A DNA stretch of 40,940 bases from Pseudomonadota bacterium. Lineage in GTDB: Bacteria > Cyanobacteriota > Vampirovibrionia > Obscuribacterales > Obscuribacteraceae. The stretch's first letter is position 1, and each line of letters opens with the position of its first letter. The stretch spans positions 1 to 40,940 of the forward strand of contig JAJPJO010000204.1 of the NCBI GenBank assembly GCA_021324135.1. The letters run 5' to 3'. The translations under genes and the position numbers were made by a program. The notes beneath the pieces were generated by a model that was not told the origin of the DNA, did not search any database, and saw nothing but the letters and a program-made list of their open reading frames with translations. Positions 2,225-34,848 of this stretch are shown in pieces.

Positions 2225-5200
2225 ATGTACAAACTGGCGGTTAAAATAAAACGATTATTGGTCGCTCTTCTGGTCTGTGTGGCTGCCGTCATAGTTGTGC
2301 CACCGCTGCCATTCGTTGCCGGCGGCAACAGCCTGCATTACTCGGTACATGCTCTAATAATCATCGGCGGCGCGCTTATATTCGCGCTCATGCTCTTCGA
2401 TCGCGGCTCGAAGGTGCAGAAATACCAGGTCTTCATGACGATCGTAGCGGCCACCTGCCTGTACGGCTCGCTGGGCAATATTTTTTACCATTTCTGGAAG
2501 ATAGAGCCAGGAGACATGCTTGATTTCAGTTGGGCGCAAGTGATTCTCATGAATCTCGCCGGTGTGCTGACCACTTTTGCCATGTACAAACTGGAGCCGT
2601 TCGACTCGTTTTCCTCAGGCGGGCTGGAGAGATTGCAAAAATCCAAAGCCCATGATGCCGACGAACACGCTCCGGAAGCCGGCGCCCCTACACTTGAAAC
2701 AGCCGGCTCGGCCGCCGATTTCATGCGGGCGGGCATCGGCAAAATGAAGAGTTCGAAAACCGACATTCAAGCGGCCCAGCCTTCGGCCTTCTCCAAGCCA
2801 ACGCCCAAAGACCTTTCCAGTGTAGAAAGCGCTCAGGCGATCATGACACCATCGGTGGAGATTGATCTGGATGCAGCAGATGAGATGCTCTCGACGCCTC
2901 TCAACCCATCCAGTGCTCCGGCTCGCCCCGGACCGGGCGTGCCGCCCGGAGGCAGCGCTGCTCCAGCCGACAAATCAAAAGGGGCGGCGGCCGCCGGCAG
3001 CGCCACCGGAAATCGCCTGCAAGCTCAGCGGCGCCGAAACACGAGCACATTTACTAAACTGCAAGCTCTTTCGGCAAGCGGCACCGGTTCGGTTGCCAAG
3101 CCTCCCGAGCGAGAAACAGCTGCCTCCGCCGGTGGTGACTTGCGCAGCCTGCTCGACAGATTGGATACCGACGAGTCCGAGCCGCTCACAGAGCCGATGA
3201 TGGATGAGCCGATGCCAGTTCCTGCAGCCGAAGTTCATCCCCTTCAGCCACCAGAAGAAATACGGATCGACATATTATTCACCGACTTCGAGAAAACCAA
3301 GAAAGCACCGCAGGCGGTGCGACCACTGCCGGCAAGCAGCGGTGCTCCGTCAGGTTCGACAGCTTCTGCCCGACCAGCAGGCTCACCGGCCTCGTCATCT
3401 CCTTCTGCTCCAGCCAAACCCTCGCCAGCCGCCCCAACACCGGTGAACCGCCCGGCGCCGGCTAGCACCGCAGGTGGTGCAAATGCAGCGGCGGCCACTG
3501 CCGGTAGAAACAGTGCCGCTCCAGCAGCGCAGTCCACAAGCCCGGCGGTGGGCAGATCGGCTGAGCCGCCGGCCGGCGGCCCCAAACTGGCCAGTCTGCT
3601 TGATCGAGCCGAAGCCCTTGCTGATGAAGACGAGCCGGAGCAGACATCGCCGGCCGAAGCGGAAGCCACAGCCAGCGCCGCTGAGGGTGGTCTTCTTTCA
3701 AGGCGCTTCATGGAATTGTCCGAGGATGAAGAGCAAGCACCGGCAGTTTCTGCGCCTCAGGAAGAGGCGGCGGAGCCAAGCGGAGCAGCGGAGCCTGAGT
3801 CGGAGGAGCGCGATGAGAAGCTCTTCTCGCAGGGTGTAGACTCCGAGATCGACGACATATTCTCCAATCTCGCACCGGCTGAGGCGCAAAGAGAGATCAA
3901 TCGCGAAGGCTCGAAGCCGCTGGAGAGCAACGAATCGCTCTACTCAAGAGAATCGGAAGAAGCCGAGGAAGTGCGGCAATCAGAGCCGGCCGAGGAGGCT
4001 CCCAAGGCGGACAGCAAACCATCGGCCAAGGAAGAACCGGTTGTCGCCGAGGCTGCCGGCGAAGAGGGAGAAGAAGAGCGCGGTTTGTTCAACGAGTCGG
4101 TTGATGAAGATATCGATGATATTTTCAGCTCGCTCGCCCCGGCCGAGGCGCAAAAGACCGTAGATGACGCCTACAAGGCCAAACCCAAGGAAGTCGTTGA
4201 AGAAGAGGAAGATGAGAAGCCGGAGAAATTCTCTCGCGAAGAGACCGGTGAACTGGCTGTTCCAAAAGTGACGATCGAACCGTCGAGCAAGAACCCTGAG
4301 CCTGAAAGGGTCGAGGCGGAAGAATCGGAAGAGCAAGCCGATGAAGAAGCGCCGTTGTTCAAGCTGGGCGACTCCGATGTGGACGATATTTTTGCCGGCA
4401 TCACGCAAGAGGCGCAGATGGACGTCAATGCGGAGACGCTGGCGCGCATCAAGCATGAAACGGCCGAGCCCGAGGAGCCAGAATCGCGCGATGAAACAGG
4501 CGAGCATCCGGCAGTCAAACCTGAGGCGGTATTGCGCAGTGCTACGCAAACAGGAGACATGCCCGCCATCACTCCAGAGCAAGCGGCGAAACTAAAGGCT
4601 CAGGCGGAAAAGTCGACTCAGAGCGCTGATGAGAGCGCCGAAGAGGATGAAGAAGCTGAGGGCGAGAGTGAGCCGGAACCAAAGGCGATACCAGATTCGC
4701 CGGAAGCGGCACGCTTGAAGAAGGAGCTCAAGGAGTTCGGCAAGCTCTCCGTCAAATCCGCGGCAGCGCCCAAACCGAGCGGCGATAACGTCGGGACCAT
4801 GAAGACGATCGGCAAGCTCCTCATCGATACACAAGCAGTCGAGAACATCATCAAGGCGGGAGAACAACGCAAACTCGGCGCCGGACTCTCGACCGCGCGC
4901 ATAATCAGCACAGCACGCGGTCAGGGCATCACCGAGCTGTTGAATAAAATCGATCTGTATGAAGGCGTCACCGGCAGTTTGATTGTCGGTCATGATGGAC
5001 TGGTTATGGCCTCCACGCTCAAGCAGGGCTGGGACAAGGACATGATGGGCGCACTGTCCACGGCGCTTTTGAGCACCAGCAATCTGACCACCAAAAAACT
5101 CGAGATCGGCAAATTGCGTCAGATGGTCATGTTGACCAAGTTGAACGGCACTAATAAGACAACCGTTCTAACCGATGTAGACGTCGGTATCCTGGCGGTT

Positions 5201-5272
5201 TTTGTCGAAGAGACCCAGATCGATAAGATCGACGGTTTGCTCGACATCATTCACAAAACCATCCACGGTTAA
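2225..5272 (+). CDS. Large membrane-anchored protein with triple DDIF repeat and C-terminal Roadblock/LC7 domain
   Basis: This 1015-residue protein has four predicted membrane helices at about residues 8-30, 37-58, 66-90 and 100-122. A Pro/Ala/Ser-rich disordered region follows (about 125-500), then a very acidic region (about 500-860). The C-terminal domain at about 890-1010 looks like Roadblock/LC7 (MglB-like), with GSLIVGHDGLVMAST and a TDVDVGILAVFVE strand. The acidic region carries three copies of a motif of about 25 residues, LFxxxVDxxIDDIFSxLAPAEAQ, starting at residues 533, 621 and 711, so the spacing is almost constant. Roadblock domains dimerise and usually serve Ras-like GTPases of the MglA type; no such GTPase is visible here. 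The start has no strong Shine-Dalgarno sequence. The gene ends 5 bp from dsbD, tail to tail. The Roadblock assignment is fairly confident, but the role in polarity, motility or trafficking is only inference. Confidence 0.88.
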   Translation: MYKLAVKIKRLLVALLVCVAAVIVVPPLPFVAGGNSLHYSVHALIIIGGALIFALMLFDRGSKVQKYQVFMTIVAATCLYGSLGNIFYHFWKIEPGDMLDFSWAQVILMNLAGVLTTFAMYKLEPFDSFSSGGLERLQKSKAHDADEHAPEAGAPTLETAGSAADFMRAGIGKMKSSKTDIQAAQPSAFSKPTPKDLSSVESAQAIMTPSVEIDLDAADEMLSTPLNPSSAPARPGPGVPPGGSAAPADKSKGAAAAGSATGNRLQAQRRRNTSTFTKLQALSASGTGSVAKPPERETAASAGGDLRSLLDRLDTDESEPLTEPMMDEPMPVPAAEVHPLQPPEEIRIDILFTDFEKTKKAPQAVRPLPASSGAPSGSTASARPAGSPASSSPSAPAKPSPAAPTPVNRPAPASTAGGANAAAATAGRNSAAPAAQSTSPAVGRSAEPPAGGPKLASLLDRAEALADEDEPEQTSPAEAEATASAAEGGLLSRRFMELSEDEEQAPAVSAPQEEAAEPSGAAEPESEERDEKLFSQGVDSEIDDIFSNLAPAEAQREINREGSKPLESNESLYSRESEEAEEVRQSEPAEEAPKADSKPSAKEEPVVAEAAGEEGEEERGLFNESVDEDIDDIFSSLAPAEAQKTVDDAYKAKPKEVVEEEEDEKPEKFSREETGELAVPKVTIEPSSKNPEPERVEAEESEEQADEEAPLFKLGDSDVDDIFAGITQEAQMDVNAETLARIKHETAEPEEPESRDETGEHPAVKPEAVLRSATQTGDMPAITPEQAAKLKAQAEKSTQSADESAEEDEEAEGESEPEPKAIPDSPEAARLKKELKEFGKLSVKSAAAPKPSGDNVGTMKTIGKLLIDTQAVENIIKAGEQRKLGAGLSTARIISTARGQGITELLNKIDLYEGVTGSLIVGHDGLVMASTLKQGWDKDMMGALSTALLSTSNLTTKKLEIGKLRQMVMLTKLNGTNKTTVLTDVDVGILAVFVEETQIDKIDGLLDIIHKTIHG
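3821..4429 (+). repeat. Three regularly spaced protein repeats (LF...DDIF...EAQ) inside the Roadblock protein gene
   Basis: The units start at 3821, 4085 and 4355, each about 75-81 bp. Copies 1 and 2 share DDIF, then S-x-LAPAEAQ. Copy 3 is diverged (DDIFAGITQEAQ). Start-to-start spacing is 88 and 90 codons. The linkers between are acidic and not repeated, which suggests conserved short binding motifs on a flexible chain, not recent DNA duplication. Confidence 0.85.
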
Positions 5273-18332: not shown

Positions 18333-19622
18333 ATGTCGCCATTACTCGGCACCCTGCAAGTTCCCGGTGATAAGTCAATTTCGCACCGCGCCTTGATTTT
18401 CTCGGCATTCAGCCGCGGGCGAAGCCGAATTTACAATTGCTCGCCGGCCGCGGACGTGAGAAGCACTGGAGAATGCCTGAGCAAGCTCGGTCTCGAGATC
18501 GAGGCTGATCGCGATGCACACGGCTCGGCGCCTGTGATTGTCATAGAGAGCCGGGGGATTGATGAGCTGAGGGCTCCCTCAGGCGAGCTTTTCGCAGGCA
18601 ACAGCGGCACAACCATGAGATTGCTTTCCGGACTGGTTGCCGGCCGCTCATTTTCAACCCGCTTCGACGGCGACGATTCCCTGAGGCGGCGCACGATGAA
18701 GCGCATCTTCGATCCGCTCGTTGAAATGGGCGCTTCTGTGCGGGCACGAGACTCCGCCTACGCGCCCTTTGAGATCAACGGCTCGGCATTGCGCGGCCGG
18801 TCCTTCCAGCTCCAGGTGGCATCCGCCCAGGTCGAGGCTTGTCTTCTTCTGGCCGGCTTGCAGGCCGAGGGTGAAACGAGCGTCACCGCACCATATACAG
18901 TGCGAGATCACACAAGCAGAATGTTTTCTCACATCGGCATTCCCTTCTCGGCGGACAACGGCACTCTAGCCGTCCGGCGGCTGCAAGAGCCGGTGCCTCC
19001 ATTTGAGTTAGTCGTCCCGGGCGACATATCATCAGCGGCATTTTTCATGGTGGCGGCGGCCTGCCGCCCCGGTTCGAACTTGCTTTTGCAGAATGTCGGC
19101 ATGAATCCGGGCCGCACCCTGATTGTAGATGTTCTCAAGGAAATGGGCGCCGACCTGGAGATTGTCGAGCCCAGGGAGCAATGCTGCGAACCGATAGCCG
19201 ATATCAGAGTGAAATATTCCGGGCCGTTGCATGGTATCACTCTGGGTAAAGAGCGAGTCGCCTCGGGCATTGATGAGCTGCCCGTTTTAGCTCTTGCCGG
19301 CGCGCTCGGCAAAGGTGAGCTGCGCGTCTCGGGAGCCGAAGAGCTCCGCCATAAAGAAAGCGATCGCATCAAAGCTCTGTGCGACAACCTCAAGTTAGCC
19401 GGCGTTGCGGTCGATGAGCTGCCCGATGGTTTCATTATCAGAGGCGGCAGCGCCGTTGAGGGTGGATCGCCCTGGCAGAGCCACGGCGATCATCGATTGG
19501 CCATGACCGGCGCCATAGCATCAGCGCTTTTTGAAAAGCCAGTTGCCATCGACGATCTCGATTGCGCCGCCGTTTCATACCCTGGTTTTTATGATGATCT
19601 GGCCCGACTGCTCAGAAGCTGA
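18333..19622 (+). CDS. aroA: 3-phosphoshikimate 1-carboxyvinyltransferase (EPSP synthase)
   Basis: This 429-residue cytoplasmic enzyme joins PEP to shikimate-3-phosphate. The N-terminal VPGDKSISHRALIFSAFSRG holds the substrate-binding Lys, Ser and Arg. The PEP/glyphosate loop reads LFAGNSGTTMRLLSG, the next block is FDGDDSLRRRTMKRIFDPL, and the C-terminal half has VRDHTSRMF, ELRHKESDRIKAL and HGDHRLAMTGAIA. By memory the loop resembles the Bacillus-type enzymes (GNSGTT) more than the E. coli type (GNAGTAMRPL), and the usual GTAMRP proline is absent. Those non-enteric forms are often less glyphosate-sensitive, but that is inference. ATG 18333 is the first good start. The gene is divergent from aroC and faces the Ntn hydrolase gene with a gap of 36 bp. 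Confidence 0.97.
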   Translation: MSPLLGTLQVPGDKSISHRALIFSAFSRGRSRIYNCSPAADVRSTGECLSKLGLEIEADRDAHGSAPVIVIESRGIDELRAPSGELFAGNSGTTMRLLSGLVAGRSFSTRFDGDDSLRRRTMKRIFDPLVEMGASVRARDSAYAPFEINGSALRGRSFQLQVASAQVEACLLLAGLQAEGETSVTAPYTVRDHTSRMFSHIGIPFSADNGTLAVRRLQEPVPPFELVVPGDISSAAFFMVAAACRPGSNLLLQNVGMNPGRTLIVDVLKEMGADLEIVEPREQCCEPIADIRVKYSGPLHGITLGKERVASGIDELPVLALAGALGKGELRVSGAEELRHKESDRIKALCDNLKLAGVAVDELPDGFIIRGGSAVEGGSPWQSHGDHRLAMTGAIASALFEKPVAIDDLDCAAVSYPGFYDDLARLLRS

Positions 19623-19658: not shown

Positions 19659-20492
19659 CTATTTGGCACGCGAGCGAGCTTTCTTTTTGGCACCAGATTT
19701 AGTATCAACACGCTTCTTGAGCTGCGCGCCGTTGGACCTGGATGTCTCTTTGATTTTTTTAGCACGCTCGTTCTTGGAGCGCGCCTTTTCCGAATCGGCT
19801 TTGGCTTGCAGTTTCGATATCAATCCCTTCTTCTGGATCAATGAGAAATTGGCCATGCCGGATCGGTTCGGAATAGTTTGCAAGCCGTTGCCAGTCGATT
19901 TGTATCCGCCCGGCTCCAGTTGTCCGAAATCGGAAGCGCGCACCTCAATGATATCGATCGGTTCCTTGCAGTAGATCGAGAAGTGGCAAGCAGCCTCCAG
20001 AGCCACTCTGCACAATTCATAGCCATCATCAATCAGCTCGTAAAGCGCATACAGCGTTCCTTGTGAATAATCAGAACCCGCTCCTTTAGCGGCGTATCTG
20101 TCATACTCGTGAACGCTGAGATTATTCGATATGCCGTAAATGCTCTTGGGAGTGACCAGGAGAAAAACGTTGTAAATCCCTGCGTAAGTCTCTTTGCCGG
20201 TATCAACGAGGGTATAGGTCTTTTTCATCTCGTTGTACATGTCGAGAAAAAATTGGAACACTTGCGCTCTGTTTTTGAACTCGGACTCCATCATCTTATG
20301 GTTGTGCTCGTAGAGATGCTCAATGATATTGTCGAGAAGTGTATAGCCGCTGGTAGCCAGGTAGGCGTGCTTGAGCTTGATGATCTTGGATGCATTGACG
20401 AGATCGGTCGAATATTCACTGCCGAAGGTTGTGATCCGATCCGCCCCCATCCAGATGCGTCCATTTTTCTTCACAGCAACAAGAATTGTCAT
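19659..20492 (-). CDS. Solitary proteasome/HslV-like Ntn hydrolase with basic C-terminal tail
   Basis: This 277-residue protein shows the proteasome beta-type pattern. After Met removal it begins with Thr1 (TILVAVKKNGRIWMGADR), giving the expected Thr nucleophile and Asp17. SKIIKL supplies a lysine at position 35, close to the catalytic Lys33 of HslV and the 20S beta subunit. Further on, KGAGSDYSQGTLYALYE and CRVALEAACHFSIYCKEPIDIIEV match the GxGS and following helix-strand of that fold. The core ends near residue 220. The last 55 residues are highly basic (runs of Lys and Arg) and probably disordered, which HslV and 20S subunits lack. No HslU or other AAA+ unfoldase gene is adjacent. AGAGGG lies 7 nt before ATG 20492. 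No signal peptide. Fold confident; peptidase activity and partners unknown. Confidence 0.82.
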   Translation of the reverse strand: MTILVAVKKNGRIWMGADRITTFGSEYSTDLVNASKIIKLKHAYLATSGYTLLDNIIEHLYEHNHKMMESEFKNRAQVFQFFLDMYNEMKKTYTLVDTGKETYAGIYNVFLLVTPKSIYGISNNLSVHEYDRYAAKGAGSDYSQGTLYALYELIDDGYELCRVALEAACHFSIYCKEPIDIIEVRASDFGQLEPGGYKSTGNGLQTIPNRSGMANFSLIQKKGLISKLQAKADSEKARSKNERAKKIKETSRSNGAQLKKRVDTKSGAKKKARSRAK

Positions 20493-20593
20493 CTAATAGC
20501 CCTCTGTGTCCCCGTTTTATCGTGTCTAAATTGATGCTTGCCCGTTTGATGAGTATTTAAATCTCTCAGGTGGAACAAGATGATCAGCCGATC

Positions 20594-20618: not shown

Positions 20619-20754
20619 AAATTTGAGGACGTTTACTCGAAATCCCTCAGCCGCCACGTTACCTGAGCATCATAGCCGATTGATGGCTGAATCTAGTATC
20701 TTAAACCTTCCTTCTTGGGTTATAGTGGAACGTGATGAGAGAGTTGATGAAAAA

Positions 20755-21585
20755 ATGAACAGGCTGGGAGGCAATCGCATCGGCATGAACAAGGCAGAGG
20801 CGCAAGAGTCGCCTAAGGAAAAATCATCGTCGCCGCTTACTACTTTTCCCGAGCATCTACTCTTGTCGGCGCTGGCTCTGGTGGTGGCACTCGATCTTAG
20901 CAGCGCCTTCTTGAGCCTGCCATCAAATATGGCTCTGGCGCAAGGTCCTTATCAACCTTATTATCCAAATCAAGCTCGCCCCGCTCCAGGCGACGTCAAT
21001 GCCCGAAGCTACATCGAACCGGTGCGGACGGTCGGTCCAGGACAACCAGGTTTTGCTTTCCCTCAAGGCATGCCGCCGGGAGGTCAGCAAACGCCCGGGC
21101 TCATGGCGCTGGATGCTAACCATCCGCAAACCAGCCCTCAAGCCATTCAGGAGTGGTTTCAACGCTACGATCAGGTGAGACGTCAGGCGCAAATGACGCC
21201 TCAGGAGAGACAAAAGGCCGATACCCACCTGTCGAAGGGCCTGTCGATTTTCATTCCCGGCGATGAGAAAGTGGCGGTGCAAAAACTGCTCAACTCACTG
21301 GTGTCGCGCTACAACATCGCCTCGGAAGCCATGAAGCAGTTGCCTCTCTATCCGGAAACCAAGCGCCTCCACCTAGGATATTATCAGTACTTCACCAGCG
21401 CTCGTCTGTTGTTCGGTGATTACCTGCGGGTGCAGCAAAATCCGCTCGTTCAGGATACGGCAGGCAATGCCGTTGCCCCAACCCTCTTGCCACGCAAGCA
21501 GGAGCTCGAGATGCTCGATCAGGCCAATAAGGCACTTGACGCCCAGCTGCGCAATCAGTTCGGCATCGCGCCCTACAAGTATTGA
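20755..21585 (+). CDS. Exported protein of unknown function
   Basis: This protein has about 276 residues. A hydrophobic stretch (LLLSALALVVALDLSSAFL) followed by SNMALA-QG looks like a Sec signal peptide with an AxA cleavage site, so the mature protein would be periplasmic or surface-exposed. The mature N-terminus is rich in Pro, Tyr, Gln and Gly (PYQPYYPNQARPAPG), and the remainder is mostly helical and charged (MTPQERQKADTHLSKGL, RKQELEMLDQANKALDAQL). I do not recognise a family. The start is uncertain: ATG 20755 is preferred, ATG 20785 is also plausible, and frames back to 20623 begin with TTG or lack ribosome sites. It ends 4 bp from the convergent metalloprotease gene. Confidence 0.72.
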   Translation: MNRLGGNRIGMNKAEAQESPKEKSSSPLTTFPEHLLLSALALVVALDLSSAFLSLPSNMALAQGPYQPYYPNQARPAPGDVNARSYIEPVRTVGPGQPGFAFPQGMPPGGQQTPGLMALDANHPQTSPQAIQEWFQRYDQVRRQAQMTPQERQKADTHLSKGLSIFIPGDEKVAVQKLLNSLVSRYNIASEAMKQLPLYPETKRLHLGYYQYFTSARLLFGDYLRVQQNPLVQDTAGNAVAPTLLPRKQELEMLDQANKALDAQLRNQFGIAPYKY

Positions 21586-21589
21586 CCGC

Positions 21590-22657
21590 TCAAAGCGGTA
21601 TGTCGATCTTCATATCGTACAGGCGCACGAGCGTGTTGACGTCGCGCTGCGAGATGCGCGAGTTCTCATCGGTAATGGCATACATCATGTCGTTTTTGTC
21701 TTCGCTGTGTCCAAGCAAACCAAGCGCATGCCCGAGCTCATGCGTAACGATGTTCTTCAGGAGGATAAAGCGGAACTCCGGCGTCTTCGATTCGATCAAA
21801 TCGAGGTTCACTTCGATCACTTGCGGCGGCACCTGGTATTTCGGTCCCAGCTTCGGAATATAGATGGGTACAGGGATGTAGCCCATGGATAACATCGTTA
21901 CTCGCCCCGGCTCTTTCTTTTGCCACTTGGTCACCGTGTGCGCACCCAGGGCGCAATTGTTTTGATCGGTCGACATGCCAAGCCGATTCCATACCACTCT
22001 AATTCTCGCTTCTTTGGGATCGGCGACCTGGACAAAACGCACCAGCCCATCGGTCCTTTGCTCCCAGCTCTCGAAGCCTTCGATGCAAGCCTGCGTGTAG
22101 GATGCGTTTTGAAATGGAGTGACATAGACGGGAATCGGCATGGATTTAAAGCGCATCACTCTCTGCTTGGTGGCATCCAAAATGTCCTTGATGTAATCAC
22201 CTTTCTCCTCAGTTCCAGCCGGCTCGATGCGAAAGTACATCGGCAGTTGCGTATTCTCCATAGGCAAAGCGGCAAGCACCGACTTGATCGGGTCTTTCGA
22301 TCGGGCATTGGGCTCGGCTGAGTCTGCCGTTTTCGCTGAGGATGATTCTTGCAACTTCGCCAGGCGCTCGAGCAACGATCCCGACTTGACGGCCCCGAAC
22401 GCTTTCAGCTCTAAATTGGCCAGGCGCTTGCTGTAAGGATCGCCCGGCTTGCCATGCAGACGATAAACCGATTCGAGACGATCGAGCACACTGCCCATAT
22501 CGGCGGCACTGATCGAGGCGGCATCGTTTGCACCGTCTCGATACGAGCTCTGGCCTGAAACAGGGCAGATCATGGTGGCAATCAGAATCAGGCACAACCC
22601 TGAGTGCCGCAAAAATGAGATCGTGCGAATTAGCCTTGTTATAGGTGGCCTGGACAT
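21590..22657 (-). CDS. Exported matrixin-like zinc metalloprotease
   Basis: This 355-residue protein has an N-terminal signal sequence (LRHSGLCLILIATMICPVSG). Its C-terminal catalytic domain has the metzincin zinc site THELGHALGLLGHS (His306, Glu307, His310, His317), followed by NDMMY, which supplies the Met-turn. The spacing is HExxHxxGxxxH, one residue longer than the animal matrixin consensus but common, as I recall, in bacterial homologues. Residues about 40-130 form a charged helical propeptide-like region with repeated Leu (LLERLAKLQ), without an obvious cysteine switch. The function is probably secreted or periplasmic proteolysis; the substrate is unknown. AGAGG precedes ATG 22657 very closely. 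It faces the unknown exported-protein gene tail to tail, and the AbiTii-like gene lies 34 bp upstream on the same strand. Confidence 0.87.
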   Translation of the reverse strand: MSRPPITRLIRTISFLRHSGLCLILIATMICPVSGQSSYRDGANDAASISAADMGSVLDRLESVYRLHGKPGDPYSKRLANLELKAFGAVKSGSLLERLAKLQESSSAKTADSAEPNARSKDPIKSVLAALPMENTQLPMYFRIEPAGTEEKGDYIKDILDATKQRVMRFKSMPIPVYVTPFQNASYTQACIEGFESWEQRTDGLVRFVQVADPKEARIRVVWNRLGMSTDQNNCALGAHTVTKWQKKEPGRVTMLSMGYIPVPIYIPKLGPKYQVPPQVIEVNLDLIESKTPEFRFILLKNIVTHELGHALGLLGHSEDKNDMMYAITDENSRISQRDVNTLVRLYDMKIDIPL

Positions 22658-22691: not shown

Positions 22692-23249
22692 TTAGTAATT
22701 TAATTGCAGTTCTTCAATACTCCGATCGATGAATTCGATCAATTTGAACCTGACATGGTCGTATACACGGAAGAGCTCGCTTGACTCGCAGAAAAACTCG
22801 GCTCCCGTGTGCTCATCGAAGCTGAGACTAAAGAGAGCATTGTTGGCATTTTCAGTTTCTTCCAGCTGGATTTCGATTTGCTGAATGCCGATGTTGCAAA
22901 AGATCTGGCGCTGCGCCAGCTCGGGCGCCATGACCGCAACCAGCTTGCCCATGCGATCGATGTGTCCCCAGACGCCGGACATGAAACGATAGCGAGGAAT
23001 CTCGAGCGTTTGCCGGAAGGGCTCGAAGTGTCTTGGACGGAAGAAGTTGAGTATATTTGAGTACGACTCCGCCCCGGCCGACTCCAGGTCGTCGGGTCTG
23101 TAGCCGAGCAGCTCCCGGTTGAGCCAGACGAGCTTCTCCTCGGCAACGTTTCCGCGGAGAAAACGGAGAATCAGCAGTAAAGCATCAGAGAGCTTCATCT
23201 CTCTGCGGCTCAATTGATCGCGAATCGTTTCAAGCTTGCTCAGCAGCAT
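22692..23249 (-). CDS. Probable AbiTii-domain protein
   Basis: This is a 185-residue cytoplasmic protein. The first 55 residues (LSKLETIRDQLS, then KLSDALLLILRFLRG and LVWLNRELLGYRPDDL) fit the pattern I remember for the AbiTii domain: a short Leu-rich helix, a SDAL helix and a W-L-x-x-E-L-x-GY box. That domain is found with abortive-infection-type and other conflict proteins and its biochemistry is unclear. The C-terminal part is predicted mixed helix/strand and has no catalytic motif I know. AGGTGA lies 7 nt before ATG 23249. It could be a defence component or simply a conserved hypothetical; no toxin-antitoxin partner is obvious, unless the 103-residue gene on the other side of the gap is involved. 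Confidence 0.6.
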   Translation of the reverse strand: MLLSKLETIRDQLSRREMKLSDALLLILRFLRGNVAEEKLVWLNRELLGYRPDDLESAGAESYSNILNFFRPRHFEPFRQTLEIPRYRFMSGVWGHIDRMGKLVAVMAPELAQRQIFCNIGIQQIEIQLEETENANNALFSLSFDEHTGAEFFCESSELFRVYDHVRFKLIEFIDRSIEELQLNY

Positions 23250-31638: not shown

Positions 31639-34600
31639 ATGAGTCCACGTGCCTTTCAAACGATCCTTGTTGCCGCAATGGGCAACAAAGATCGCCTTGA
31701 GCTTGAAAGCCGGGTCCTGGCTGCTGCTCTGAAGCAGAGTTTCGAGCGCGGCGACACCTACGGGGTCAGTCTGGCGCACAGGCAGATTTTTCTCCTCCTG
31801 AAGGCGCAGCAGACGGCCTCCTCGGATGCAAATAAGGTGGAGCAGAGCAAGAGCCCCGCGGCTCAAGCCGATGATGGTCATGCAGAGGCTCAGGCGCCCC
31901 TCTCTGAGTCGAGCAGTCCCTCACAGGCGTCCGCGGTTTCAGCGGCGCCGGTTGAAACGACCAGCCGAAAGAAAAAGCGCAGCTTGCCCGACATTGTCTG
32001 GGAGACCGATCAGGAGCAACCCGGTCAGGCTGAAGCACAAGCCTCAGAGAGCGTCTCTTTCGCGCCTGGATCACCCGAGCAGGAAGCGGCTCCCTCAGCC
32101 TCGATCAGCGAGAATCAGAAACCGGGTCTGGATGCATATGGGCTCTTGCAGGTTGAGCAAAGTGCCACTTTCGATGAAATTCACATCGCCTTTTTCCGTC
32201 TCGCTCGCCGCATTCTCTTTGCCCTCAAGAAGGTGAAACGCAAGCAGCGCAAGCCACTGCTGGATGAGCTCAGGGACCTCTGGATCGCGCACGACATCCT
32301 CACTGATCCGGTGACGCGCACCGACTTCGACTTTCGTATGCTCGGCTTGCGGGGGGCGCCCAATGCTCTGGTTTCGCTCAGCGAAGCTCCTGATGAGGCG
32401 ACGGCTTTCAGTACGCGCACGCCGCTGCGCGTCGGCGAGCTCATGCAGTGCGCCGGTTTGCTCGAAGCGACCGAGCTCGATATCGCTGCCGACATGCACA
32501 AAGCCATGCCGGAGATGTTGTTCGGCGCATTTCTTGTCAAACAAGGATTTATCACCGATGAAGATTTAGGGCAGGTTCTGATCGGGCAGTGGTTGTTGAA
32601 AAACGGCAACATGACCGTGAGCAATTTTCAGGCATTAATGAAAATTTGGCGCGAAGAGCGCGTGCCAATCGAGCAAACGGCCGTCGACCAGGGCTATGTT
32701 TCTGAAACCGAGATGGAGCGCCTGGTTATAGCATTTATCCAGGACACGAATACATCCGCTCCTACCCTTGGTTTGAACGCCAACTCAGTCTTGCCGCCCA
32801 GCGCCCCGCGCATTAATGCCGAGGAAGCGGCGAAACGCACTTTCCGCGCCGATCATGCCGTACCAAGCTGGAAAGATCAACTCGATTGGTCGCCGCCTCC
32901 CGAGCCCGTGCAGCGCATTGAAGAAAACATCGACAACGAGCGCCGCCCGATGGACAGCTCGCTTGAGATTGAAGGGATTACCGACGGGATTCCGAAGGAC
33001 GCGACGAAGAAATCGCTGCGGCGGCTGATGGAGGGAATTCAATCACCTGACACCACAGGTGGTGAAGAACCCGGCTCACGCTCGGCGTCACTGAAGGGCA
33101 TCTTGACTGGAGCACAGCCGATTCTCGAATTGCCGGAGGAGCCTCAAGCCGCCCCTGAGCCCGCCGCGCTCAGTGAGGCAACAGTTGAGCCGACTAAAGC
33201 CGAGGCACAAGCCCGATCGCCCGAGCAGGTGCCATCACATATGGTGCAGCCGGCGCTGCCGGTGGCAAAAATTTCACTGGATGAGCCTTTTTCGCTGGCC
33301 AGAAGGCGAGCCCGAGCTCAGCAGACGGTGGCCTACGAGCAGGGTCAGGAGTTCGGAGATGTGGATTTCGACGATGATGATGAAATCCAGTCGGAAGCCG
33401 AACTCTGGTTCGAATTCGACCGGTCGCCCAAACGCGGCAAAGCCACGATTGATATCGCCAAAGTGGGCGCCTATCTTAGGCCGGGTGCCTCAGCCCCAGA
33501 GGCGGACTCAGGCGCGAAATCGGAAGTCGCCGGTCAAAAAACGGATTCAGCGCCTGCGCCCGGCGAGGCAAACGGCGAGGATGAGAAAGCGCCGCCTGGT
33601 AATACCGCCATCCTCGAGAAAACACTCATGGCCGACCAGATGCAGGCTGAGTATGACGAACGAGCCCAAGAGCGTCAAGCGCCCGGGCAAACCAGCGACA
33701 ATGAAAGCCGGGAGGCGGAGCCGGAAACACCGCTCGCCATAGAATCGGCTGAAACAGGTGCCGAGCAGGCGGCCGCCGCACCGGATGCGGTGGCACCGGA
33801 CGCGCCCGCACCGGATACGGTGGCTTCAGATTGGGCTAAGGGAGAACAACAGCAACCAGACCATGAAACTGCCGGGCAGGATGATGCCGCCGTACCGTTC
33901 GCCATGGAGAGAAAGGACGATCTCACCAAGAGCGGCACCTGGGGGAAAATAGTTGCCGGGCTGGAAGAAGTGGCTCGCACCGTCAGACCGAGTCAGGAAG
34001 ATCTGTCCTGGTCTGCTCCGGAGAGAGAACAACTTCAAAATGAGACGCCGGCAGAGCCGGAGATTGATACCACAGATGATGCCGACAACATCCAGTTCAA
34101 ACCAAAAATAAAACCGGTGCCGCCTGCCATTCGCTCAGAAGAGGCCAGCCCCAGACAAGCAGTGAAGAAGACCAGCGAGCTGGATAGCTTGCGAATCGTG
34201 CCGGTTAAGACCGAGATGAGGCAGTCCCAACAACAAAGAGCCGCAGCCGATGATCAATCCGCGCAAAATGCCGATGCGACCGCGGCATCGCCTGAAAGCG
34301 ATACTGTCGCCTCACCGGATTTGCAGCCAAAAGGACCCGCTGAAGAGTCGAGCAGCCAGAGCTCATCGGCTGGCACGGATCAATTCGGGCCGTCTCAACG
34401 CATCACTGATGAGGTCGCCTTTGACGCCGAAAAACTAGAAGAGGACATCGGCAGCTTCGAGGAAGAGATAAAGAGTCTCGATCGAGCCATCGACGATGTC
34501 GAGGCCGAGATCAGCAGCCTCGATTCATCAGGGCAGATGAGAAGCGCCCAGTTTGATGATGATGAGGATGTTGTCGTTGATGATGAAGCCACGGAAGAGA

Positions 34601-34848
34601 TTAAGGCAGGTGAGGCTCAGACCCGGATGAAGTCGGGCGAATGGCAGCTGGTCTATAAACTGGAAGGATCAATTGCTGACATGTTCTTGTCCGACACTCC
34701 CGAGGAAGATCTGAGCAAGATGAGACCACGTCTGACTCAGATTGACTCCGTCATTCCCGGCTCGGTGGTGAGGGCTGTTGAAAGTGATACCGCATCCGGT
34801 GAGCAAGAAAATGATCCGAGCAAGCCTGATGATGAGGAAGAAGACTGA
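31639..34848 (+). CDS. Large acidic protein with J-like segment, MshEN-like helical segment and C-terminal coiled coil
   Basis: This 1069-residue cytoplasmic protein has a helical N-terminus (residues 1-55) and a disordered stretch. A J-domain-like segment (about 165-235) begins LDAYGLLQVEQSATFDEIH and has a second helix like J proteins but lacks the HPD tripeptide, so it probably cannot stimulate DnaK. A helical segment (about 262-370; LRVGELMQCAGLLEATEL, LFGAFLVKQGFITDEDLGQV) resembles the N-terminal helical repeat of GspE/MshE-type ATPases. About 550 residues of Glu/Asp/Pro-rich low-complexity sequence follow, then a coiled coil (about 928-960) and a C-terminal MKSGEWQLVYKLEGSIADMF block. 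I know no family with this layout; it looks like a scaffold. It is divergent from rsmG and ends 7 bp from the response regulator, facing it. Confidence 0.85.
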   Translation: MSPRAFQTILVAAMGNKDRLELESRVLAAALKQSFERGDTYGVSLAHRQIFLLLKAQQTASSDANKVEQSKSPAAQADDGHAEAQAPLSESSSPSQASAVSAAPVETTSRKKKRSLPDIVWETDQEQPGQAEAQASESVSFAPGSPEQEAAPSASISENQKPGLDAYGLLQVEQSATFDEIHIAFFRLARRILFALKKVKRKQRKPLLDELRDLWIAHDILTDPVTRTDFDFRMLGLRGAPNALVSLSEAPDEATAFSTRTPLRVGELMQCAGLLEATELDIAADMHKAMPEMLFGAFLVKQGFITDEDLGQVLIGQWLLKNGNMTVSNFQALMKIWREERVPIEQTAVDQGYVSETEMERLVIAFIQDTNTSAPTLGLNANSVLPPSAPRINAEEAAKRTFRADHAVPSWKDQLDWSPPPEPVQRIEENIDNERRPMDSSLEIEGITDGIPKDATKKSLRRLMEGIQSPDTTGGEEPGSRSASLKGILTGAQPILELPEEPQAAPEPAALSEATVEPTKAEAQARSPEQVPSHMVQPALPVAKISLDEPFSLARRRARAQQTVAYEQGQEFGDVDFDDDDEIQSEAELWFEFDRSPKRGKATIDIAKVGAYLRPGASAPEADSGAKSEVAGQKTDSAPAPGEANGEDEKAPPGNTAILEKTLMADQMQAEYDERAQERQAPGQTSDNESREAEPETPLAIESAETGAEQAAAAPDAVAPDAPAPDTVASDWAKGEQQQPDHETAGQDDAAVPFAMERKDDLTKSGTWGKIVAGLEEVARTVRPSQEDLSWSAPEREQLQNETPAEPEIDTTDDADNIQFKPKIKPVPPAIRSEEASPRQAVKKTSELDSLRIVPVKTEMRQSQQQRAAADDQSAQNADATAASPESDTVASPDLQPKGPAEESSSQSSSAGTDQFGPSQRITDEVAFDAEKLEEDIGSFEEEIKSLDRAIDDVEAEISSLDSSGQMRSAQFDDDEDVVVDDEATEEIKAGEAQTRMKSGEWQLVYKLEGSIADMFLSDTPEEDLSKMRPRLTQIDSVIPGSVVRAVESDTASGEQENDPSKPDDEEED

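Follow-up and report, generated by a model that had tools for sequence, protein, structure and literature searches.

What does a proteasome-type peptidase with a long basic C-terminal tail do in a bacterium that seems to have no HslU? This question is raised by one ORF in a 40,940-nucleotide stretch of DNA (the window; the whole stretch that was analysed) from a member of the Obscuribacterales (Melainabacteria). Melainabacteria are the non-photosynthetic sister lineage of Cyanobacteria. The host genome is 7.96 Mb in size and 92% complete, and its close relatives are MAGs of Candidatus Obscuribacterales or Melainabacteria. An initial annotation of the window had proposed a stand-alone Thr peptidase gene at 19659-20492 and named no strand. 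It was found that the ORF exists and lies on the minus strand (20492 to 19659), where it comprises 277 codons and a stop codon and encodes a 277-residue protein, here called P0001. The same coordinates read on the plus strand are interrupted by stop codons and contain no intact frame. The translation begins with Met-Thr, and an in-frame TAG stop codon (20493-20495, minus strand) lies immediately 5′ of the ATG, with zero codons in between. Thus, a propeptide is impossible for P0001. Several orthologues also have an in-frame stop codon right before the ATG. A chance origin of the ORF is excluded by the existence of 23 other distinct orthologues together with a core dN/dS of 0.02-0.04. The core values, computable for three orthologue pairs (0.019-0.041), indicate strong purifying selection, which argues for a working protein.

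The product can be divided into three parts, all encoded on the minus strand. According to AlphaFold2 and Foldseek, codons 1-190 (19923-20492) encode a peptidase core predicted to form an Ntn sandwich with both helix pairs. Codons 191-215 (19848-19922) encode a semi-conserved linker, in which K198, T206, and G212 are invariant in alignment A1. Codons 216-277 (19662-19847) encode a basic low-complexity tail.

To which proteasome-like family does the core belong? P0001 is the sole match of the Pfam Proteasome model (PF00227) in the host genome, and it scores 22.5 bits, barely above the cut-off of 22.4. Many orthologues fall under this cut-off and are therefore easily missed. The best sequence matches in the PDB were the BPH proteins of C. 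metallidurans (5ovu, E 4.7e-14) and T. denitrificans (5ovs, E 9.9e-14), while HslV followed both BPHs in the same search with E 0.015 only. A 10-sequence profile matched the BPHs in the PDB with E 5e-18 and 7e-18. In HHalign comparisons of the 24-member clade, BPH gave E 6e-22, the Ser1 cyanobacterial protein L042 E 3e-13, the Geobacillus virus E3 type E 4e-10, and HslV E 6e-6; no similarity to Anbu was seen (E 0.17). The NCBIfam HslV equivalog models gave P0001 16.9 bits against a cut-off of 137 and 15.2 bits against 157.75, which is far under the cut-offs. In a maximum-likelihood tree, the clade groups with BPH and the phage and L042 proteins and is separated from HslV (95/86) and from Anbu; some branches are long, and the internal order of the group is not firm.

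The predicted structure points in the same direction. The AlphaFold2 model of the core (residues 1-196, from a 36-row alignment of diverse sequences) has a pLDDT of 84.7 and a pTM of 0.83, and its six best PDB matches in Foldseek are all BPH chains (5ovs/5ovt/5ovu; E 2.6e-13 to 7e-12, TM 0.77/0.81), followed by HslV and then 20S beta subunits. Both helix pairs, which are the ring-contact helices in this family, are present in this monomer model. Judged by sequence, profile, and modelled fold, P0001 is an N-terminal-nucleophile peptidase that is closer to BPH than to HslV or any other described protein. Within the classification of Fuchs et al. 2021 (PMC8665760), it is a group I protein nearest BPH. 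The proteasome-type Ntn fold expected in the initial annotation is thus borne out by the core model and Foldseek, which gave no refuting fold. Its term "HslV-like" was right as to a proteasome-type Thr peptidase but not as to the closest relative.

P0001 resembles other superfamily members to different degrees. HslV (ClpQ) shares the Ntn Thr peptidase fold and the catalytic residues; P0001 differs in occurring in genomes without HslU, in scoring under the HslV model cut-offs, and in having a longer pore loop and a C-terminal tail. The phage and cyanobacterial group I homologues (the Geobacillus virus E3 gp65 type and the Ser1 protein L042, which is CPH/AAH-like) give near full-length profile matches, but these are weaker than those of BPH; the homologues form their own clades, and the two examples read, E3 gp65 and L042, lack the basic tail. 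Anbu, common in photosynthetic Cyanobacteria, also belongs to the proteasome superfamily; however, its C-terminal helix H5 forms a coiled coil. The basic, low-complexity composition of the P0001 C-terminus argues against such a helix, while the full-length AlphaFold2 model that includes it (10 close orthologues) has a pLDDT of 36, too poor to judge the tail by. Two further proteins were noticed among the sequences searched. One is another proteasome-like protein (MTVIVGVLCTDGAVLVAD...; L123:1813-2637, genome G006), matched by PF00227 with 41 bits in two stretches. The other is a 388-residue protein of Pseudoalteromonas phage J2-1 (L044:3001-4167), in which a group I proteasome-like N-terminal domain is followed by an acidic C-terminal region.

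Does P0001 rely on an unfoldase, as HslV does? In the host genome, no hslU was found over the cut-off (best 95 versus 362 bits). A genome that is 92% complete is not proof by itself, but the 20 gene-carrying relatives also have no hslU over the cut-off, so the absence of HslU is firm. Nor does any of the adjacent genes examined encode an AAA+ protein. The initial annotation had seen no HslU or other unfoldase gene nearby, and the genome-wide profile search now extends this observation, for HslU, to the host and its relatives. It is highly improbable that P0001 is an HslV-like peptidase served by another unfoldase encoded elsewhere in the genome, such as ClpX: the host genome contains a 461-aa AAA+ frame resembling HslU/ClpX (C201), which may be ClpX, but profile and fold both place P0001 with BPH, and the low HslV model scores (16.9 versus 137 bits) and the lack of HslU speak against this explanation.

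BPH itself is described as a double ring of 14 subunits enclosing an acidic chamber, and no unfoldase or partner was found for it (PMC5777263). P0001 shares with BPH (5OVS/5OVT/5OVU) the fold, the Thr1/Asp17/Lys/Gly set, the propeptide-free start, the lack of a dedicated unfoldase, and a pore loop longer than that of HslV. Catalytic residues were numbered by reference to T. denitrificans BPH (Thr1, Asp17, Lys37, Gly50, and Ser139, as in PMC5777263); the published numbers land on the expected letters, which confirms the alignment register. On the minus strand, Thr1 (codon 2; 20487-20489) is the predicted nucleophile after Met removal, and Asp17 (20439-20441), Lys35 (20385-20387; Lys37 of Td-BPH and Lys33 of HslV), and the oxyanion-hole Gly48 (20346-20348; Gly50 of Td-BPH) complete the set. 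All four residues are invariant in 24/24 sequences. The Thr1, Asp17, and Lys35 listed in the initial annotation are therefore present with matching numbering, and none has been lost in the homologues.

On the other hand, identity between P0001 and BPH is about 27% only, and several positions depart from BPH. At the position of Ser139, which is reported to be hydrogen-bonded to Thr1 in Td-BPH (PMC5777263), P0001 has Ala137 (20079-20081, minus strand); the clade has Ala in 21/24 sequences, Ser in 2, and Cys in 1. The "GxGS segment" of the initial annotation is present as GAGS, but its second letter, Ala, occupies the Td Ser139 position, and the final Ser lies two residues later. The pore-loop region YTLVDTGKETYAGIYN (20169-20216, minus strand) has 16 residues, of which 2 are acidic, and a net charge of -1, while that of BPH has 18 residues, 6 of them acidic, and a net charge of -4/-5. 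Two cysteines, Cys168 (19986-19988) and Cys174 (19968-19970; both minus strand), are invariant in the clade and have no Cys counterpart in the compared sequences of BPH and HslV. The clade also differs from BPH in its semi-conserved linker and polybasic tail, and in its gene neighbourhood (aro genes here). Finally, Thr1 is found in 24/24 members of the clade, whereas all BPHs outside Betaproteobacteria are reported to have Ser1 (PMC5777263). Because three reported features of BPH are thus departed from (the acidic pore loop, the Thr1-contacting Ser, and Ser1 outside Betaproteobacteria), I call the Obscuribacteraceae proteins, which are like BPH in their core and probably in their mechanism, a BPH-like sister subfamily, not BPH in the strict sense. 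BPH in Cyanobacteria is already marked in Table 1 of PMC8665760, and sequences of the P0001 clade may therefore be in that set. Neither Melainabacteria nor a basic tail comes up in the main text of that paper, and no earlier description of a basic-tailed BPH-like variant was found in a literature search of main texts.

The replacement of the Thr1-contacting Ser by Ala could lower or change the activity. The core may then be a weak or specialised enzyme, either a single-substrate peptidase or a transpeptidase/ligase like connectase, and not a general protease, as reflected in Ala137 and the changed pore loop. In keeping with this idea, Ser139 has become Ala in 21/24 sequences beside a neutral pore loop, and the two characterised BPHs were reported to be inert on all tested substrates, although epoxomicin and MG132 modified Thr1 (PMC5777263); connectase of the same superfamily is a ligase (PMC8665760). 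Nevertheless, T1/D17/K35/G48 are invariant, and the P0001 model keeps both helices and has no insertion between S3 and S4, unlike connectase, in which H1-H2 are missing and such an insertion is present. I regard the specialised-enzyme explanation as doubtful, if worth keeping in mind.

Is the basic tail a real feature of the protein? The last 87 residues of P0001 carry a net charge of +18, and the last 50 one of +14. A 292-kb sample of the host genome contains 195 ORFs of 150 aa or more, and among these P0001 has the highest net charge in the last 50 residues (mean 0.2, sd 4.4), so that the strongly basic tail of the initial annotation is well founded. In a sample of 379 ORFs from relatives, the ten most basic C-termini (+13 to +18) all belong to orthologues of P0001. 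Conservation of the tail in homologues had been suggested as a check: all orthologues have a C-terminal stretch rich in K/R/A/S, extending 31-134 residues past the core with a net charge of +5 to +34, while the sequence is hardly conserved. Between P0001 and its relatives, identity is 71-96% in the core and 11-32% in the tail, and no motif conserved across orthologues was seen within the tail. Thus, it is the charge of the tail that is kept, not its sequence; the basic tail is genuine and is conserved as a property.

It is very unlikely that the tail lacks a function and arose as a by-product of composition, for instance through drift at the 3′ end. The tail sequence does diverge fast, and its dN/dS (0.16-0.47 where computable) exceeds that of the core. 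However, this value is still below 1, the tail stands out from the sampled proteome, and a positive charge is kept in all orthologues while identity drops to 11-32%. DNA repeat slippage was rejected as the source of the tail, since no DNA tandem repeat was found in it. The weakest tail (net +5) belongs to a second, more divergent gene copy (L010/L032; G028:C219:84-797) near a contig end in a genome that is 66% complete. A different proteasome-like protein (MTLVIAIPT...) of the phylum, found in L079:1222-2049 (G025; PF00227 48 bits) and L051 (G073), also ends with a K/R-rich stretch. Tails of this kind may thus have evolved repeatedly on the proteasome-like fold within the phylum.

How is the gene distributed, and do its neighbours suggest a partner? 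It is carried by 20/35 other genomes of the host's family and by 0/24 sampled genomes outside the family. Across 386 genomes of the phylum, the sole other profile match is one distant Ser1 protein. In most orthologous loci, the gene sits between c2 and aroA-aroC-aroB-pheA. The divergent neighbour c2 (20698-21585, plus strand) encodes a family-specific protein and adjoins the gene in most of these loci, and the convergent neighbour aroA (18333-19622, plus strand) is a conserved flank. In most gene-lacking relatives, c2 and aroA are adjacent without the gene. As c2 stays in relatives lacking the gene, it was rejected as a partner of the peptidase. When mapped onto a tree of the aro proteins, the occurrence of the gene requires 7 changes; given the one shared site, repeated loss is the simplest reading. 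The gene is old and vertically inherited in the family, and apparently it was lost repeatedly. Its function is therefore dispensable. Horizontal mobility in the family is disfavoured, because gene order at the locus is conserved and, elsewhere, the same site cleanly lacks the gene. Plasmid searches with P0001 and with Cm-BPH gave no matches, a scan of viral contigs with the family profile found no relative, and phages have only distant group I homologues. The conserved block adjoining the gene also contains a 355-aa protein with a C-terminal matrixin-type (M10) metalloprotease domain (21590-22657, minus strand) and a 185-aa protein with a sub-threshold AbiTii match (22692-23249, minus strand; E 0.004), whose homologues are again part of this block in 10 of the compared loci.

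What, then, may the tail bind? I consider it probable, though far from certain, that P0001 is a stand-alone, self-compartmentalising BPH-like Thr protease whose tails hold it on a polyanion. I infer that P0001 assembles into rings, is proteolytic, exposes its tails, and binds a polyanion. Removal of Met would expose Thr1 directly, with no propeptide, and the subunits would most likely form a closed BPH-like double ring with the active sites inside. Since no dedicated AAA+ unfoldase is present, it is proposed that peptides or unfolded proteins would be taken up without ATP. Each subunit would carry a disordered Lys/Arg-rich tail of about 30-130 residues, which in a 14-mer would make a halo of roughly 250 positive charges. 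The halo would be external because the C-termini of the family face away from the ring, where they are possible interaction sites (PMC8665760). It would tether the chamber to nucleoid DNA, RNA/ribosomes, or polyphosphate, and the tethering would set where, and perhaps when, the chamber cuts. There are precedents for such an arrangement. In actinobacterial TopA, Ku, and HupB, lysine-rich C-terminal domains take part in binding DNA (PMC7398561), Lon is a protease steered by binding both DNA and polyP (PMC7566177), and Ca. Obscuribacter has polyP metabolism (PMC4040986). A link to polyphosphate kinase by co-occurrence was examined and rejected: ppk1 is present in 16/16 gene-carrying and also in 7/9 gene-lacking genomes, and the difference is not significant. 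Points against the tethered-protease explanation are the inertness of the two characterised BPHs, the replacement of the Thr1-contacting Ser, the repeated loss of the gene, and a gene neighbourhood that suggests no partner of P0001.

The tail of the same protease may instead be a docking or solubility element for an acidic protein partner, or it may bind anionic membrane lipids. The tail is polycationic and of low complexity and has no motif conserved across orthologues, as either role would allow, and the window encodes two large acidic proteins, to which the initial annotation had tentatively linked the tail. One (2225-5272, plus strand) has 1015 residues, a pI of 4.6, and a Roadblock/LC7 match over the cut-off near its C-terminus. 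The other (31639-34848, plus strand) has 1069 residues, a pI of 4.4, and a weak DnaJ-domain match (E 0.002) under the Pfam cut-off. However, homologues of both were found in 25/25 family genomes tested, including 9 without the peptidase gene, and binding to one specific protein would normally be reflected in a conserved motif. A role in docking or lipid binding is thus unlikely, and the link to the two acidic proteins gains no support. In sum, the fold, the catalytic residues, the lack of HslU, and the tail of the initial annotation stand; the annotation was incomplete in that BPH is the closest relative, Ala replaces the Thr1-contacting Ser, and the gene belongs to a whole clade.

The tethered BPH-like protease can be extended one step further, though only tentatively: the tails might make P0001 an ATP-independent barrel with built-in targeting, in which polyanion binding localises or switches on the chamber and so replaces the unfoldase of HslV and the proteasome.

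No substrate, partner, or function of BPH is known, although its structure is solved and its Thr1 is reactive. The branch in Obscuribacteraceae has not kept the acidic pore loop or the Ser in contact with Thr1, and its Thr1 stands against the published rule of Ser1 in BPH outside Betaproteobacteria. A sister clade with the catalytic set and a charge-conserved tail gives a handle that BPH lacks, namely a testable polyanion ligand for a chamber that would work without a motor.
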